Positions 31,924-39,719 of a stretch of 64,000 nt of DNA are shown piece by piece. Within the stretch, counting starts at the first letter, position 1; every line of letters starts with the position of its first letter. The notes below the pieces were generated by a model. It saw nothing but the letters and a program-made list of their open reading frames with translations. It did no database searches and was not told where the DNA came from. This stretch comes from Solirubrobacteraceae bacterium (GTDB lineage: Bacteria; Actinomycetota; Thermoleophilia; Solirubrobacterales; Solirubrobacteraceae), in NCBI GenBank assembly GCA_017882455.1, contig JADGPL010000006.1, forward strand, positions 62,001 through 126,000. The letters run 5' to 3'. The position numbers and the translations under genes were made by a program.

Positions 31924-31952
31924 ACAACCTGTCACCAACGAGGGAGATCAGC

Positions 31953-32177
31953 ATGATTTCGAGAAAGAGCCTTACAGCAGCGGCGCTCGCAACGGCCATC
32001 AGCGTTGGCAGCATCGCAGCACCCACGATGGCCGCAACCTCGACGCATTGGACGTCCACCCAGTGCAAGACATGGGAGAAGTCGTTTGTGAAACGCAACC
32101 CAAATGCCACAAGTAAGCGCAAGGGTGAAGCCAACAAGGTGTTGAAAAGTCACGCTTGCTCGGTGCGGGTCAAATAG
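31953..32177 (+). CDS. small exported protein of unknown function
   Basis: 74 residues with a good signal peptide (basic MISRKS, hydrophobic AALATAISVGSIAA, cleavage near TMAA-TS), leaving a mature part of about 47 basic residues with two cysteines (TQCKTWEK and SHACSVRV) that could form a disulfide. A GAGGGAG ribosome site precedes the ATG. Base composition is clearly less GC-rich than neighbours and lysine is frequent, suggesting transfer or special constraint. No family was recognised. It is divergent from the APC permease. Confidence 0.65.
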   Translation: MISRKSLTAAALATAISVGSIAAPTMAATSTHWTSTQCKTWEKSFVKRNPNATSKRKGEANKVLKSHACSVRVK

Positions 32178-32226
32178 GACGCAGCAATCAGTGAGTATCA
32201 GCAGCCTGCACTACAGGCTGTGAGTT

Positions 32227-32254
32227 GCCGGCGGTGAGAGCGCTCACCGCCGGC
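32227..32254 (+). terminator. 12-bp perfect hairpin after the small exported gene
   Basis: GCCGGCGGTGAG pairs perfectly with CTCACCGCCGGC across a four-base loop, 50 bp after the stop at 32177. No T-run follows. Position fits transcript ending for the exported protein gene. Confidence 0.5.
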
Positions 32255-32275
32255 CGGCTGGGGGAGCTCGACACG

Positions 32276-32395
32276 ATGAGGACTCCTCCCGCCATCAAGC
32301 CCCCGGCTCCCCAGGCGCCCTCGAGGAGCTGGAGCAGCTCACGCTTCTCCGCGGCAGTCGAAGCGGCCTACCTGCTGGAGGTGGCCAGCCGATGA
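32276..32395 (+). CDS. possible 39-residue ORF
   Basis: ATG at 32276 preceded by GGGGAG, reading MRTPPAIKPPAPQAPSR and ending AYLLEVASR with TGA at 32393. Proline-rich start, short amphipathic end, no family. It may be chance or a remnant. The rest of 32178-32486 holds the hairpin above and nothing else recognised. Confidence 0.2.
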   Translation: MRTPPAIKPPAPQAPSRSWSSSRFSAAVEAAYLLEVASR

Positions 32396-32486
32396 GCGCC
32401 GTGGCGCTATCCCCACGGCCTGGCTGTGTGCGTTCGCCACCCCAAGCGGCCTGAGCGCTGCTTGGCGGCAGTTCGTGCCTGCCCCT

Positions 32487-35400
32487 TTAAGAGGGGAGTG
32501 CGGTCTCCCAGGCCGCGACCGCCGCGAGCTCGGCCGTCGGTCGCTCGTCCTCTACCTGAACAGCTCCTGCGAACACCCGGCCGCTCGCACCGTCGATGCT
32601 GATCTCATCGCCTTCGGCGAGCTCGCGCCCGCCGAAGCTGACCAGCCGTCGCTCGAGGTCGATGTCCACGTCGTCTGCACCCACGACGCAGGGCCTACCG
32701 AGCTCGCGCGCGACCACGGCGGCATGCGAAGTGCGCCCGCCGGTGCCCGTGAGCAGTCCCGCCGCCACGATCATCCCGGCCAGGTCCTCGGTGCTGGTAT
32801 CGCGACGTATCAGGACGGACTTGCGGCCTTCCTGGGCGAGGCGCTCGGCGGCCTCCACGTCGAGCGCGATCGGACCGCATGCGACTCCAGAGCTGACGGG
32901 CTGCGCGCGGCAGAGCTCGTCGGCTCCGCCGTTCTCGCGCACGTAGGTGCGCCGTATGCCCTGAAGGTCCAGGCCGGCAAGTCGCGCACGAGCCTCGCTG
33001 ATGGAGACGACGGATTCACGGACCTGGTCGACGGCGATATGCAGAGCCGCCCAGGGCGTGCACATGGCGGCTCGTGCCTGCAGCAGGAAGAGCTTCCCCT
33101 CCTGGATGGTGAACTCGAACTCCTGCGCGTCGTGGAACTCGCGCTCGAGCACACGACAGATCTCCTCCAGACGCCGCTGAACCTCGGGTGCGAGCAGCGC
33201 CAGCTGTCCGCCGTCTTCGGGTGTGCGGCGCCCGCTGACGATCTCCTCGCCCTGCGCGTCACGCAGGAACTCGACATAGGGACGCCGCTCGCCGGTGGCG
33301 GGATCGCGAGTGAACCCCACACCGGAGCCCGACAGGCCGCCGGCGTTGCCGAACACCATGCGTTGCAGAATCACAGCGGTGCCGAGGGTCTCGGGCAGGT
33401 CGTGCAGGCGGCGATAGTCGCGCGCCTTCGGGGCGTCCCATGACTCCAGCACGGCCCGCACCGCCCCCTGGACCTGATCGATCGGACTCTGAGGGAGCGG
33501 CCTGCCGGACAGTGCGCGAAAGCGCTCCAGGTGCTCAGCGGTCAGCTCTGCGAGCGTGCCTGCGTCCAGGTCGCGCGGACGCTGTACGCCAGCTGCCTGC
33601 ATGCGCTGTGCGGTGGCCTGCTCGAAGGGCTCTGTCGGGCAGCGCGCCACCACCCGGGCATAGGACTCCACCAGCCGTCGATAGGAGTCCCATGCCATAC
33701 GGGGGTTGCCGGTCAGCGCGATCAGGCCCTCGATGCTGTCGTCGCACAACCCCACGTTCAGCACGGTCTCGAGCATTCCCGGCATCGACGCGGGAGCGCC
33801 CGAGCGCACCGAGAGGATCAGCGGGCGCCGCGCGCTTCCAAGTCGCAGACCGCTGCGCTCCTGCAGTGCGCCGAGCGCTGCCGAGACGAGTGTTCGCAGC
33901 CGCGCCTCGTCGCGCGCCGCCGCGAAGTCTCGATATACCGCGGTGGTGAGGATCGCAGCGTCGGGGACCGGCAGCTTGGCGCGCGCCATCCGCGCGAGGC
34001 CGTGGCCCTTGGAGCCGATCGAGGCGACGTCGGGCACCTCGACGTCCCCGCGGCCGATCACGTAGAGCTCCTCGATCTCTCCGCTCTCGTCGCGCGCGGG
34101 CACCGCCCGCGCAGCAGAGGGCTCTGGCGTCGTCAGGGGCTCGGAGCGCACCACGTTGCCGAGCACCTGGCGACGGAGCTGGTGAGCGGCGCGCATCAAC
34201 GCGTCCGCCCCCTCCTCGCAGGCCTGTGTCGCCTGGGCAAGGACGAACAGCTCGCCGGCCGCATCGACCTCTTTGACGAACGCCGCCTGAACCTCACGCA
34301 GCCGCTCGTCGGCGTCGTGCTCCAGCTCAACGATCCGGTGCGTGGTCTCGAGGAACGCGCCCATGTCCTCGCTGGGGCCGCCGCGGTGAATCTCGCGGGC
34401 GAGATGCATGGCCCGCAGATAGCATCGAGACGCGTCCAGCACCAGCGACATCATCTGTCGCGACTGTGTCAACACGGCTCCCGAGAGGCGCCCTTGAGGG
34501 AGCAGCGACCACGAGAACGCGGCCTCCTCGAAGGCGTCGGCCACGTCGTCGGCCTGCTGGACGAGCTCGACGAAGAATGCGGGCTCCTCTGCACGCGCAC
34601 ACGCTGCCCGAACCTCGTTGACCAGCTTGTCGGCACGCTGCTCCCACTCGCGCGCGAGTCGAGCGATCCCGACGCGATCCTGACTCGGGTGCTCGAGCGC
34701 CGCCTGCTCCAGCGCGTCGCGCGCCGCCTCGCCGAGCGACACGACCAGCTCGGCATGGACGCCGATCAGCTCGAACAGCTCCTGGCGAGCGGTGCGCACG
34801 TAGCCGATCAGCTCCGCGCGCGCCTCGTCTGCCACCAGCGAGGTCGATCGTCCCGCGAGCAGACCCTCTGCGCAGATACGCAGCACCGCACGCAGATAGG
34901 AGATCGCCGCAGAGGCGCCGAGCACGTCGATCAGCGACTCGCCGGCACGTGTGCCCCGACCGCTTGCGAAGGTCAGGGCGTCATACACGAGCTGCTCGCC
35001 GCCGGCGAGCAGAAAGGCCATATGCCCGAGCTCGCGCTCGGCGGCCCACGCCAGCAGATCCACGGCGGCGCGGTTGCCCACCAGGCCTCGAAGCCGCTTG
35101 CGCGCACGGTTCCAGTCGATCAGGAAGACCATGCGCGAGCCGAGCAGCTCCAGGAAGGCTTCGAGCTCGGCCTCGGAGGCCGCCGTGAAGCGGCCCACGG
35201 CGAGGTGATAGAGCCCCTCCCCGGAGGCGCCATCGCCGCGCGAGCGGGTGTCCTCCCACTGCATCTGCTGCCCGGAGAGCAGGCGCTGGAAGAACAGGAG
35301 CCGCGGGAGGTGGACATCCGTATAGATCACGGTCACCTCCAGCGCGATGATCTTCACGACCACCACGTGCGCGTCGGTCTCTCCGATGTCGTTTTGGACC

Positions 35401-36074
35401 ACGAGCGCATCGCCGCTGCGCGTGGCCACAGTGGCGAGACCAGGATGCTCGAAGCGCAGACGCTGGGTACGCTCGACACCACGGGCGAACGCGCCCACCA
35501 ACGGACGATCGCTCGCCTCGATGCCGTAGGCCAGCGCCCCCGCGATCGATTCGCTCGCCAGGCGCCCCACGAGCCCGTTGAGCTCACGGTGGGCATCCAT
35601 GACCACGAGGTGCAGGCTGTCGTGGTCATGGCTGCGACCGCTCGTCAGCGCAGAGAGGCTCTCCCCGGTGATCGTGTCTGCACTGGGCTGCACCTCGCCC
35701 TCGAGCTTCCCCAGGCGTTCGCCGAGCGCCTGGGCAGCGCTCACCGCAGCTGTTTCGAGCGGCACCAGCATCGTCTCCACCTCGCCGAAGGCCGTCTGGA
35801 CCAGCTCGGCAGCCCCGGGGATGGAGTAGGAGCCGTCCTCGCCCAGCGCGCTGGTATGGACGACGCGATCCAGCCCAACGTCCGAGACGCCGCTCGCGAG
35901 GCGCTCCTCTCGCAGATCTGACGCATCCCGATCGCCATCGGCGCCAGCGCGGGCGCTCTGCAGGAGCGTGAGCAGATACTTGACACGATCGTTTGCCGCG
36001 AGGGCCCGGCTGATCAGCTCGGGTAGTAGGAGCTCGCTCTCGCCGAGCGCCGCGATGATGCGGTCCTTTGACAT
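32487..36074 (-). CDS. DUF47/PhoU-like - PPDK ATP-grasp - phosphohistidine fusion
   Basis: 1195 residues; the ATG at 36074 has a perfect AGGAGG five bases before it. Residues 1-400: unrecognised (SELLLPELISRALAANDRVKYLL; a middle part with VVVKIIALEVTVIYTDVHLP). About 405-640: long helices in the style of PhoU/DUF47 (HRIVELEHDADERLREV). About 680-1080: pyruvate-phosphate-dikinase ATP-grasp domain, SKGHGLARM, SVRSGAPASMPGMLETVLNVGL and FTIQEGKLFLLQARAAM. About 1090-1195: phosphohistidine swivel domain with GGRTSHAAVVARELG. The PEP/pyruvate TIM barrel is absent, so the phosphoryl acceptor must be something else. It could be a new phosphotransferase or a regulator of phosphate-linked signalling. 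Single-gene unit. Confidence 0.85.
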   Translation of the reverse strand: MSKDRIIAALGESELLLPELISRALAANDRVKYLLTLLQSARAGADGDRDASDLREERLASGVSDVGLDRVVHTSALGEDGSYSIPGAAELVQTAFGEVETMLVPLETAAVSAAQALGERLGKLEGEVQPSADTITGESLSALTSGRSHDHDSLHLVVMDAHRELNGLVGRLASESIAGALAYGIEASDRPLVGAFARGVERTQRLRFEHPGLATVATRSGDALVVQNDIGETDAHVVVVKIIALEVTVIYTDVHLPRLLFFQRLLSGQQMQWEDTRSRGDGASGEGLYHLAVGRFTAASEAELEAFLELLGSRMVFLIDWNRARKRLRGLVGNRAAVDLLAWAAERELGHMAFLLAGGEQLVYDALTFASGRGTRAGESLIDVLGASAAISYLRAVLRICAEGLLAGRSTSLVADEARAELIGYVRTARQELFELIGVHAELVVSLGEAARDALEQAALEHPSQDRVGIARLAREWEQRADKLVNEVRAACARAEEPAFFVELVQQADDVADAFEEAAFSWSLLPQGRLSGAVLTQSRQMMSLVLDASRCYLRAMHLAREIHRGGPSEDMGAFLETTHRIVELEHDADERLREVQAAFVKEVDAAGELFVLAQATQACEEGADALMRAAHQLRRQVLGNVVRSEPLTTPEPSAARAVPARDESGEIEELYVIGRGDVEVPDVASIGSKGHGLARMARAKLPVPDAAILTTAVYRDFAAARDEARLRTLVSAALGALQERSGLRLGSARRPLILSVRSGAPASMPGMLETVLNVGLCDDSIEGLIALTGNPRMAWDSYRRLVESYARVVARCPTEPFEQATAQRMQAAGVQRPRDLDAGTLAELTAEHLERFRALSGRPLPQSPIDQVQGAVRAVLESWDAPKARDYRRLHDLPETLGTAVILQRMVFGNAGGLSGSGVGFTRDPATGERRPYVEFLRDAQGEEIVSGRRTPEDGGQLALLAPEVQRRLEEICRVLEREFHDAQEFEFTIQEGKLFLLQARAAMCTPWAALHIAVDQVRESVVSISEARARLAGLDLQGIRRTYVRENGGADELCRAQPVSSGVACGPIALDVEAAERLAQEGRKSVLIRRDTSTEDLAGMIVAAGLLTGTGGRTSHAAVVARELGRPCVVGADDVDIDLERRLVSFGGRELAEGDEISIDGASGRVFAGAVQVEDERPTAELAAVAAWETALPS

Positions 36075-36376
36075 TGGCCTCCTGTTCGGGGGGTTCCTGC
36101 TCAAGCGCATTCGCCGGATGGCTCTCACGCTAAGCGGGCCCCCCGGCACGCGCATCGGATGAATCCCGCGGCGGCATTTCGGCAAATGCCGGACCCACAG
36201 GCACTTCTCCCCGAGGCGAAGCGGCCGCGAAGGCCTCCGATGGGCGCCGGGACAGGCCCGCGCACCAGGGGTGTCGCGGGCCGGGACCCCCACGACCGGA
36301 CCACTTTGGCAGTGAGATTGTTACGAATGTGTAGAGAGGTTGGCCCGGCCGATTCGATCTGACAGAATCCTTGGCC
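36075..36376. other. divergent intergenic region
   Basis: The 302 bp hold no convincing gene. The right end is less GC-rich and carries a promoter-like pair (36306-36335) pointing to the phosphoesterase. The left end holds the ribosome site of the large fusion gene. Confidence 0.5.
36306..36335 (+). promoter_or_regulatory. candidate promoter for the metallophosphoesterase
   Basis: TTGGCA (36306-36311) and TGTAGA (36330-36335) separated by 18 bases resemble a housekeeping -35/-10 pair. The gene starts about 42 bp downstream. Confidence 0.45.
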
Positions 36377-37519
36377 ATGCCCAGGGTCCCACGCTTTCAC
36401 CTGCCCAGCGGGTCAGCCCAGCAGCAACTACGTGGCGGCACGCGTGCGGCACACAGCCAGCAGCCCTTCCCGCTGCCGGCACCCCGCGGCTCTGCTCCGT
36501 ACAGACTCGACCTGGCCGATGTCTTGGGCGCCAAAGCGGTGACGGCAATCGAAGACGCGGGCAAGCTGGTATTCCACGCCGTCGGCGACACCGGCGGGAT
36601 CAAGCAGCCTGAATTCCAGGAGAACGTCGCTGCTGCCATGGAGCGCGACTTCGACGCGCTGAGGCCGGTGCCGTCGTTTTTCTACCACCTCGGAGACGTT
36701 GTCTACTTCTATGGACAGCGCGCCCTCTACTACGAACAGTTCTACGACCCTTACATGCGATATCCAGCACCGATCTTCGCGATTCCAGGCAACCACGATG
36801 GCGATGTGACGCCCGGAGAAGACACCGAAGACCCGCCCGAGTCGACCTCCCTCGATGGCTTCGTCACGAACTTCTGTGCACCACCCGGGACCCACACGCC
36901 CGAGGCCGGCGAGTCGCCCAGGCAGGCCATGACCCAGCCGAACGTCTATTGGACCCTCACCACGCCGCTGGCGACGATCATCGGCCTCTACACGAACGTC
37001 CCCGAGCATGGCGTGGTGGACTCCGAACAGGCTGAGTGGGTCGCCTCGGAGGTGGCTGCGGCACCGAGCGACAGGGCGCTGATCATCGCCGCCCATCACC
37101 CCGTCTTCTCGGCCGACCAGTTTCACGGCTCCTCGCCGAACATCGGCGCGATTCTCGACGAAGCGTTCTCGAAGGCAAAACGAACGGCCGACCTCGTCCT
37201 CAACGGGCATGTGCACAACTACCAGCGCTTCACACGTCAGCTGGACGGCAAGCCGATCACCTACATCGTCGCGGGGGCCGGCGGCTACCACAACCTGCAC
37301 CACATGGGCAAGGTCAACGGTCAGCCACCGCCGCCCGAATGGCAGGACGAAGAACTGGGAGTCGTGCTCAACGCCTACAACCAGACCGACTTCGGCTACC
37401 TGACGCTGACGGTCACCAAGACGGCGATCGAAGGCATTTACAACGCCGTACCGAAGCCCGGATCCCCCGGCGCCACCGTTCAGGCGCCGATCAGCGACAG
37501 CTTCACGATCGCGCTGTAG
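36377..37519 (+). CDS. calcineurin-like metallophosphoesterase
   Basis: 380 residues from ATG 36377 (a TTG two codons earlier is in frame). Metal-binding motifs in order: AVGDTGG near 75, HLGDVVYF near 105, PGNHDGD near 142, AAHHPVFS near 237, and GHVHNYQR near 280. The set is complete for a dinuclear phosphoesterase of the purple-acid-phosphatase-like group. The N-terminus (PRVPRFHLPSGSAQQQ) lacks a clear signal peptide, so probably cytoplasmic. The substrate is unknown. It diverges from the PPDK-like fusion. Confidence 0.88.
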   Translation: MPRVPRFHLPSGSAQQQLRGGTRAAHSQQPFPLPAPRGSAPYRLDLADVLGAKAVTAIEDAGKLVFHAVGDTGGIKQPEFQENVAAAMERDFDALRPVPSFFYHLGDVVYFYGQRALYYEQFYDPYMRYPAPIFAIPGNHDGDVTPGEDTEDPPESTSLDGFVTNFCAPPGTHTPEAGESPRQAMTQPNVYWTLTTPLATIIGLYTNVPEHGVVDSEQAEWVASEVAAAPSDRALIIAAHHPVFSADQFHGSSPNIGAILDEAFSKAKRTADLVLNGHVHNYQRFTRQLDGKPITYIVAGAGGYHNLHHMGKVNGQPPPPEWQDEELGVVLNAYNQTDFGYLTLTVTKTAIEGIYNAVPKPGSPGATVQAPISDSFTIAL

Positions 37520-37652: not shown

Positions 37653-39719
37653 CTAGCCTCCTGCGGCCGGAGCATGCTGGGGCACGTTCTGAGCGGGTGG
37701 CAGCTCATCAGCCGCTTTGGCTGAACGCCCGCGCCATGATTCGAAGATCGGGAGGGCGGCCCAGCGTACGATCACCTGGGCACCGAAGCCGGAGGCGACG
37801 GCGGTCAGGTAGTCGGTGAGCGATCCCCACGTGGCCGTGTAGATCTGGAGGGCGTACACGAGCATCGCACCCAACGCGGCGACGATCGAGAGCATGATGT
37901 CCTGGCGCCTGGCGGCAGCCATCAATCGCGCAGGCCTGGAACGCACGAGCACACGAACGACGCGGGTCCAGAGTCTCGGCAGGAGCTCGGAGGTCCATCG
38001 GGACAACGCGCTGGGGAGATGCGCCTTCTGCACGAACGTGGTGGATGCCTGCGACTGATCGAGCGCAGTCGTGATCGCGCTGTCGCCATGGTCCCCCGTC
38101 TTGCCGGCGAGATCTTCCTGCAACGAGATCAGTTTCAAGCGCAGGCCCGCCGGGTCCACCACACCAGGGCCGCCGGCGAGGGGTGCATGAGCCGACGCCA
38201 CCGCTCTGAGGCGGTCGAAGAGATCGGATCTCGCGTGCTCCTCCAGAGCAGCCCAAGCCTCGGCCAGACGCTGCCACGTGCCGGCCACGTCATGGTGCCA
38301 CTTGGTCTGTTCCACGAGCATTCGGGCCTTCTGCTCTGCTTCCTCGGGCGGGACCTCGTTCCTGGCGACTTCGGCCCAGAGCCTCCTGCTGTCTTCACTG
38401 GTGGTGGTGCTCGACCACGAGGTCCCGTCGATCGAGTCGAGCTCGATGCGCGATATCGCCTCGAGTTGGCGGACCTTGGGCTGCAGCCTGACCCAGGCCG
38501 CAATCCGTGCCATGAGCTGCTTGATCGACAGTTCGAGCTCGTCCAGGTCGGCTTCGCTCTGTGCCCAGTGCAGCTCGGAGAAGAAGCCTGCGGCTCCGTG
38601 CAGCGACGGTTCGGCGAGCCACTCCGTCGAGGTCCATGGCGCACGGTCGGGACCGATCGCAATGCTCAGACCGGCCCAGTCCATGAGGGAGTCCCCGCGC
38701 TCTATGGGTAGGTATTCGATCAGGGCGCCCTGCAGTCTCGCGCGCAGAACGTTGCGCCTGCGGGCGCGCTTGCCCAGCAATGGCAGCAGCCCGCCGAGGA
38801 ACGTGCCGATGGCGACGGCCAAGAGCGTCCAGACGATCGCGTCGCGGGCGGTCAACGAGACCGACAGCGAGGGAGCCTGCGAGCTGCCGCTGATCGGCAC
38901 CGTCCCCGAGTAGGTGCCCGCCGCGGCATCTCCGACCAGACGGAGCACGGGCCGTAGTTCGCCGGCTTCACGCTTGACCCCAACCCGTGCGAGGACGCTA
39001 CGCCCGTCGCCCGAGTGCAGCAGCGCCCGCCCGTTCAGAGCCCCGGAGTCGACCAGCGCCTGGACGCCAAGGCCGTGCAGCTCGAAGTTCGCTTCGGTCC
39101 CACTCGCCGAGTGTCCCCCCGGGAGCCATGCGGTTGTGTGCAGCACCACGGCGCTGGGAACGGCCTGCACCGTCGATAGGTCGAGTTCGCTCGCGACGAC
39201 AGGGAGCAGCGCCGGCTTGCCTTGGGGAACCAGCGAGGAGTTGACGGCGCGGATGACGAGCATCCCGTCCACGCTGGCGGGATCATGCGTTGCTGGCAGT
39301 CCCACCACGAGCGCGACGCGACCGACGCCGCGCGGCGCAATCGTCGGCACCTTCCCGACGCTGCGCAGCCAGACCGGGCCGCTGGCGCGGCCGAACAGAT
39401 GCAGGTACAGCACGGGCGCGCCCTCCGCTGAAGGTTGGTCCTCAGCTGGATCGAGCGTCAAGCGGGGACGCAGCGCGACCGAGCCGGTGTTGCGGAGCAG
39501 CAGCGTGAACGTGCCTTCTCTCATGCCGGCAACCGACGGCCCGAATTCGATCTGTATCTTGCCGGCGGGTCGTTCGAGACGCAGGCCGCCAGCGTTCACG
39601 GCGGCCTGCGCTGAGGAGATCCCGGGTACGAGCACGAGCCACGATGCAAGCAGTAGTGCTTGCAGAGCCGTGGCGATATGGGAATGCGCGCGTCGAGACT
39701 TCTCTGACGGGCCCAGCAT
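37653..39719 (-). CDS. large membrane protein with extracytoplasmic beta-rich domain
   Basis: 688 residues. A signal peptide (ALLLASWLVLVPGISSAQA) leads into about 250 residues of beta-rich sequence with Ig-like or Alpha-galactosidase-NEW3-like strands (GTFTLLLRNTGSVALRPRL; AGTYSGTVPISGSSQAPSLSV). A helix follows near 280-305 (AIVWTLLAVAIGTFLGGLLPLL), then a long cytoplasmic helical region and two more C-terminal helices (about 605-655). No family name is recognised. The NEW3-like part resembles adhesion or sugar-binding modules. A signal sequence plus three later helices gives a C-terminal tail on the outside or inside depending on anchoring. Confidence 0.7.
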   Translation of the reverse strand: MLGPSEKSRRAHSHIATALQALLLASWLVLVPGISSAQAAVNAGGLRLERPAGKIQIEFGPSVAGMREGTFTLLLRNTGSVALRPRLTLDPAEDQPSAEGAPVLYLHLFGRASGPVWLRSVGKVPTIAPRGVGRVALVVGLPATHDPASVDGMLVIRAVNSSLVPQGKPALLPVVASELDLSTVQAVPSAVVLHTTAWLPGGHSASGTEANFELHGLGVQALVDSGALNGRALLHSGDGRSVLARVGVKREAGELRPVLRLVGDAAAGTYSGTVPISGSSQAPSLSVSLTARDAIVWTLLAVAIGTFLGGLLPLLGKRARRRNVLRARLQGALIEYLPIERGDSLMDWAGLSIAIGPDRAPWTSTEWLAEPSLHGAAGFFSELHWAQSEADLDELELSIKQLMARIAAWVRLQPKVRQLEAISRIELDSIDGTSWSSTTTSEDSRRLWAEVARNEVPPEEAEQKARMLVEQTKWHHDVAGTWQRLAEAWAALEEHARSDLFDRLRAVASAHAPLAGGPGVVDPAGLRLKLISLQEDLAGKTGDHGDSAITTALDQSQASTTFVQKAHLPSALSRWTSELLPRLWTRVVRVLVRSRPARLMAAARRQDIMLSIVAALGAMLVYALQIYTATWGSLTDYLTAVASGFGAQVIVRWAALPIFESWRGRSAKAADELPPAQNVPQHAPAAGG

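Follow-up and report, generated by a model that had tools for sequence, protein, structure and literature searches.

Predicted domain organization of AB

Where does the phosphoryl group of a pyruvate phosphate dikinase (PPDK) half go when the pyruvate barrel is missing? We consider this question for a protein, here called AB, encoded in a 64,000-nucleotide stretch of a Solirubrobacteraceae genome (contig JADGPL010000006.1, positions 62,001 to 126,000; hereafter the window, whose own coordinates are used throughout). AB runs from an uncharacterized N-terminal domain through a PhoU domain to a PPDK core, composed of an ATP-grasp and a swivel domain, and it stops at residue 1195, where the PPDK barrel would begin. 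Below, A denotes the N-terminal and PhoU domains and B the PPDK core, while individual loci and genomes carry L and G numbers. The features are as follows:

32487..36074, minus strand: whole fused protein AB, 1195 amino acids; a single open frame with an ATG that has AGGAGG upstream
36078..36086 (approximate), minus strand: ribosome-binding site AGGAGG just 5' of the ATG, from the sequence
34830..36074, minus strand: A, N-terminal domain, residues ~1-415; 52 of the 60 residues invariant among 43 A sequences; model confidence (predicted local distance difference test, pLDDT) 86.6; no convincing fold
34140..34817, minus strand: A, PhoU domain, residues ~420-645; fold match and three ExxxD motifs (E478/D482, E585/D589, E620/D624)
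32970..34067, minus strand: B, PPDK-type ATP-grasp, residues ~670-1035; profile and PDB alignment; K689, R757, E987, Q999, and R1001 correspond to PPDK K22, R92, E323, Q335, and R337
32550..32942, minus strand: B, swivel (PEP-utilizers) domain, residues ~1045-1175; phospho-acceptor His1117 in GGRTSHAAVVAR; protein end at 1195, no barrel

The mechanically called open frame is longer and extends to a GTG at 36293; we placed the start at the ATG at 36074 because AGGAGG lies just upstream and orthologues align from the same Met. A 796-amino-acid open frame antisense to AB (33531-35921, plus strand) was taken as a GC-rich shadow frame and not as a gene.

The C-terminal half of AB is PPDK without its barrel. 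Pfam matches above the family cut-offs cover PPDK_N (residues 746-953, E 7.9e-33) and PEP-utilizers (PF00391; residues 1085-1165, E 2.4e-21), the match to the PPDK model TIGR01828 covers only model positions 5-522 of 865, and PPDKs in the PDB (1kbl, 9pzl) align over PPDK residues 19-527 of 874 with E ~1e-113. Pfam, TIGR01828, and the PDB alignments gave no match to the PEP-utilizers_C (PF02896) barrel anywhere in the protein, and in the source genome PF02896 occurs only within two full-length enzymes (frames of 899 and 905 amino acids), with no orphan barrel; complete PPDK and PEP-synthase-type genes are also present there. A preliminary description, made from the letters of the window, had proposed PPDK-type ATP-grasp and phosphohistidine domains with no barrel and had named a cryptic barrel elsewhere as the finding that would speak against it; the domain reading is confirmed, and no such barrel turned up in the protein or, as an orphan, in the genome.

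Is this core likely to work? The ATP-grasp residues listed above, together with H1117 (PPDK H455), are what we take to be the catalytic residues of PPDK, and all six are kept in 43/43 B sequences. The position equivalent to PPDK D321 is D in 38 sequences and E in 5. ATP-grasp and swivel residues sit on one polypeptide, B, in every one of the 43. The complete autophosphorylation core proposed in the preliminary description is thus borne out, at His1117 instead of the histidine near residue 1113 that it had named, and there is a barrel-less precedent: VadK (Rv1127c) of Mycobacterium tuberculosis, a PPDK N-half shown to autophosphorylate a His when given ATP and Mg (PMC13400623). His1117 of AB would, judging from its homology to PPDK and VadK, likewise be phosphorylated from ATP.

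The middle part of AB is, in the predicted structure, a complete PhoU fold. An AlphaFold2 model of A built on ten sequences has a pLDDT of 82.4, and its residues 419-641 match PhoU structures with Z scores of 21-24 overall (3l39: Z 24.3, root-mean-square deviation 3.1 over 205 aligned residues; 4q25 PhoU: Z 22.8, deviation 2.1 over 193). Three E(D)xxxD metal motifs are retained, with E478/D482, E585/D589, and E620 invariant and D624 conserved in at least 95% of 43 sequences. The profile evidence is fainter: PhoU_div/DUF47 (PF01865) matches AB at residues 471-524 with 20.2 bits, under the 24.4 cut-off, and at E up to 1 it also matches 6/11 relatives, the best at 1e-10. The PhoU/DUF47-like region that the preliminary description had suspected therefore stands as a whole modeled fold with a subthreshold profile match.

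The N-terminal ~415 residues, which that description had called unrecognized, match no Pfam or NCBIfam family. The model of the first 423 residues alone has a pLDDT of 86.6. Searched as one piece, it gave a best Foldseek E of 0.044 against the PDB and no match at 0.001 there or in BFVD; the best VIA-align Z was 8.3 (MotA C-terminal domain, 104 aligned residues, deviation 3.2), which is within the level that the tool calls common. Rows for RecJ, Cdc45, and yeast exopolyphosphatase were weak (Z ~5) and were not taken as evidence of relationship. A search for phage carriage of the domain found no match. Conservation is nonetheless concentrated here: of the 60 residues invariant among the 43 A sequences, a set that includes near-copies, 52 lie in this domain vs. 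8 in PhoU, among them six histidines (H155, H162, H210, H236, H255, H351) and D152, D160, N228, D229, R258, D320, W321, N322, R325, and K326. Such a pattern would be more in keeping with an active site or an acceptor site than with a scaffold role.

A and B in other bacteria

The preliminary description had missed that AB is a fusion of genes that are separate in Proteobacteria. There, A (N-terminal domain plus PhoU, ~645 amino acids) and B (PPDK core, ~540 amino acids) are adjacent genes, annotated as "DUF47 family protein" or, in one record, "phosphate transport regulator" and as "PEP/pyruvate-binding domain-containing protein," respectively. B directly follows A in 45/45 loci with a full-length A and readable downstream sequence, four of which are fused; we scored adjacency by tblastn because our simple, home-made gene caller at times chose antisense frames over B. 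At 32 of the 39 split junctions tested, stop and start overlap by 4 bp in the ATGA/GTGA manner. Translationally coupled or fused, A is, by this genomic evidence, an obligate partner of B.

A few Solirubrobacterales-type genomes carry full-length fused relatives, which are 78%, 82%, and 55% identical to AB. The fusion in the window looks derived, because a genome of the same class (L094) has separate A and B genes and its B branches first in the B clade, as drawn with a midpoint root. The record with the 82% identical protein (L009) is titled as a Chloroflexi bacterium; mislabeling or recent transfer could account for so close a match to the window's Thermoleophilia-type protein.

How distinct is B from other PPDK-like proteins? 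In the more careful of two trees, with 72 rows, near-copies included, PPDK rows thinned by number, and a midpoint root used for drawing only, the 43 B sequences form a single clade with support 100/99. Outside it fall 25 full-length PPDKs and four barrel-less rows, two VadK-like and two alphaproteobacterial ones within PPDK. An earlier quick tree had 90 rows, and there the VadK group was a single row, L120 having been dropped by a length filter. The VadK-like rows (L120 and L121) are proteins on long branches that match NF004531, not Rv1127c itself, and equating them with VadK is our own step. On the rows tested, B appears to be a family of its own, apart from both PPDK and VadK-like forms.

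The two alphaproteobacterial rows are PPDK halves without a downstream barrel (L040:5839-7668, Rhizobium leguminosarum pRlX5; L150, Azospirillum lipoferum p1), in which frame breaks in the records are possible. Their place within the PPDK clade, apart from the VadK-like rows, suggests repeated, independent barrel loss; with the VadK-like rows and the AB clade also apart on the tree, PPDK seems to have lost its barrel several times.

Comparison with characterized systems sharpens the picture. AB shares with PPDK the ATP-grasp, the phosphohistidine swivel, and the catalytic residues, and it differs in lacking the pyruvate/PEP barrel, in having ~665 extra N-terminal residues that include PhoU, and in its separate B clade. 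VadK shares the barrel-less N-half with B, but the consulted passages of its source mention no PhoU or N-domain partner (PMC13400623). HpeHI, CreHI, and PpsAB are described as two-component small-molecule dikinases (PMC12167813); they share dikinase chemistry, a replaced acceptor domain, and a two-gene arrangement with A-B, but there the split falls between ATP-grasp and swivel plus acceptor, whereas in AB both lie in B and the partner carries PhoU, and HpeHI is described as resembling rifampin phosphotransferase (RPH), whereas B is of PPDK type.

RPH itself shows that a swivel-His core can hand phosphate to an acceptor other than pyruvate, and the preliminary description had pointed to such action on a small molecule. 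This was not established: the RPH model NF041857 gives AB 44.1 bits against a cut-off of 999, making it a remote relative only. RPH has the order ATP-grasp, acceptor domain, swivel, whereas AB keeps a PPDK-type core. Finally, A shares the whole fold and the ExxxD motifs with PhoU/DUF47 proteins (PF01865; 3l39, 4q25) but joins them to a 415-residue domain found only with it and links both to a PPDK core. In its mode of action AB would resemble the first half of PPDK as well as VadK, and it is itself neither a PPDK nor, on the rows tested, a VadK, nor an HpeHI/PpsAB-type dikinase; its donor half is understood by homology, and its N-terminal domain is uncharacterized. We found no publication on the A-B pair in the open PMC literature.

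PHO boxes upstream of A

When is the A-B pair used? Upstream regions of 28 nonredundant proteobacterial loci, picked by eye with near-identical upstreams dropped, were scanned with a PHO-box consensus; L094, L017, L011, L057, and L119 were excluded. Allowing up to four mismatches, a PHO box precedes A in 21/28 loci, compared with 3.25 in dinucleotide shuffles (at most 8 in 60 shuffles); allowing up to three, it does so in 10/28, compared with 0.35. The comparison set, genes elsewhere in these loci that are preceded by an intergenic region, gives 12/107 and 0/107, a contrast for which the Fisher P value is too small since the loci are related. Most boxes lie 30-65 nt before the start codon of A. 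In seven loci (L077, L111, L115, L117, L010, L038, and L039) the box sits on the other strand at a distance of 67-139 nt from A, and another seven (L078, L079, L082, L091, L092, L093, and L118) have none at up to four mismatches. Because of these boxes, the A-B operon of Proteobacteria looks PhoB-controlled. In the window, an actinobacterial PhoP-type box was sought before the gene; the best candidate has 5 mismatches in 14 positions and was not taken.

A proposed role in phosphate starvation

What might AB do? In the account we favor, AB derives from PPDK and serves as a phosphohistidine phosphotransferase in the response to inorganic phosphate (Pi) starvation; we assign this general scheme a probability of roughly 0.55. 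B would bind Mg-ATP in the ATP-grasp and phosphorylate the swivel His1117 as PPDK does, with release of AMP; were the step truly PPDK-like, pyrophosphate (PPi) would form in it from the gamma phosphate and Pi. The swivel would then carry the phosphoryl group to A instead of to a pyruvate barrel. There, the conserved N-terminal domain may bind an acceptor, or be the phospho-acceptor itself, and take the group, while the PhoU domain, its metal motifs kept, may tune the reaction to phosphate status or dock to the phosphate machinery. Since pairing with B is obligate, A should be the destination of the phosphoryl group or decide its fate; transfer to A is inferred, as is the direction of the reaction in vivo. 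The acceptor would most likely be an inorganic or simple phosphate compound.

Polyphosphate-type neighbors point, as do the PhoU domain and the PHO boxes, to phosphate economy, which is why we favor a Pi-starvation phosphotransferase. A polyphosphate-type gene lies directly 3' of AB or B in 3/5 Thermoleophilia loci: Ppx/GppA follows B in L094, CYTH-CHAD follows AB in L009 (where the CYTH match, at 21.0 bits, is below the 23.2 cut-off), and a CYTH fragment sits at the contig edge in L008/L096. The phosphate link raised in the preliminary description has thus gained these neighbors and the proteobacterial PHO boxes. The window's own AB may likewise answer to phosphate.

Several observations weigh against this scheme. 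No catalytic relative of the N-terminal domain was identified, so that "enzyme" draws on conservation alone. The 300 bases upstream of AB in the window contain no PHO box (best candidate, six mismatches), and no box precedes the gene at the three remaining fused loci either. Polyphosphate-type neighbors are absent at the window and L095, and none turned up in a scan of 23 Burkholderiaceae-type and 8 alphaproteobacterial loci. Lastly, AB is accessory, because it is patchy across the groups sampled: it occurs in 3/24 genomes of the genus, including its own, in 3/299 of the class, and, within a phylum sample of 198, only in the window's own genome. Elsewhere, it was found in 26/299 genomes of the family of G326 (24 full length), in 3/299 of that genome's phylum, and in 9/289 of the class of G329.

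The main rival, which we regard as possible and clearly the less probable account, is a regulatory phosphorelay in which B, as a VadK-like histidine kinase, phosphorylates or binds A, and PhoU then controls phosphate signaling or transport (PhoR/Pst/Pit) with no turnover of a metabolite. PhoU is a regulator of phosphate signaling; one record annotates A as a phosphate transport regulator, and an operon that looks PhoB-controlled would be in keeping, such control being common among feedback regulators. VadK is described as a regulatory kinase working via protein interaction (PMC13400623). The distribution of constraint speaks against the relay, as it is strongest in the N-terminal domain and not in PhoU (52 vs. 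8 invariant residues), and in the loci examined we noticed neither pst nor pit nor phoR next to AB, although no search aimed at them was made.

AB might also represent a new class of polyphosphate- or pyrophosphate-cycling enzyme, an unlikely reading in our estimate, in which the PPDK core would interconvert ATP + Pi and AMP + PPi via phospho-His1117 and A's domain would pass the phosphoryl group to or from an inorganic (poly)phosphate chain. During Pi starvation, such an enzyme could recover ATP and Pi from AMP, PPi, and polyphosphate, with its built-in PhoU domain as the sensor, and it would act alongside PPK1, not instead of it. PPK1 is present in 41/44 AB genomes, two of which (G018 and G322) appear to be the same genome, and in 20/20 without AB; AB as a PPK1 replacement was rejected on this ground. 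The misses are G544 and G743, which lack a PPK1 match, and G023, which is only 58% complete.

Somewhat more doubtful still is a kinase that acts on a carboxylate or a similar small carbon compound (e.g., AMP-forming acetyl-phosphate formation) linked to acetate and polyhydroxybutyrate metabolism. Its appeal comes from Burkholderiaceae-type loci, in raw counts that lack a background rate and use references (AckA, PTA, FabI, PhaC, Ppx, CYTH-CHAD, Acs, and YceI) taken from the same loci: ackA, pta, or fabI occurs in the fetched stretch of 9/23, collinear with A-B as ackA-fabI-A-B-pta in L079-L081 and as A-B-fabI-pta-ackA in L082, and PhaC lies beside AB in 3/23 and acetyl-CoA synthetase in 2/23. 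Such neighbors are absent, however, from the Thermoleophilia loci and from the 8 alphaproteobacterial loci scanned (ackA, pta, fabI, and PhaC), and the cluster may share PhoB control only. PhoB reportedly controls ackA/pta in Sinorhizobium. By far the least probable explanation is a crippled or split PPDK that uses a barrel encoded elsewhere, in trans. The core does retain all the PPDK catalytic residues tested, one with a D/E exchange in 5/43, but the source genome has no orphan PF02896 alongside its complete PPDK and PEP-synthase-like genes, and B forms a clade apart and has an obligate partner of its own. AB as a known anti-phage defense protein was also rejected (PADLOC, no family with an E of 0.1 or below).

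If the phosphotransferase scheme holds, AB would provide a direct link from a histidine-phosphate carrier of central metabolism to both PhoU and phosphate starvation. Its obligate partner should hold the answer to the final acceptor of PPDK halves, the proteobacterial promoter element tells when the system is used, and the uncharacterized ~415-residue domain gains a concrete test.

Genes flanking AB in the window

The ~550 bp directly 3' of AB (31940-32486), where relatives have CYTH-CHAD or Ppx, contain no recognized gene. In L009, a NUDIX hydrolase gene (L009:4685-5479) lies just 5' of AB on the same strand, giving the order NUDIX, AB, CYTH-CHAD. Divergent from AB in the window, with ~300 bp between the starts, is one further feature, listed as genomic context without implying a role in the system:

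36371..37519, plus strand: calcineurin-like phosphoesterase

This phosphoesterase has a weak purple-acid-phosphatase C-terminal match. Beyond it, on the minus strand (37653-39719), is a 688-amino-acid protein that seems to have a signal and membrane segments; no Pfam family matches it below E 0.08.

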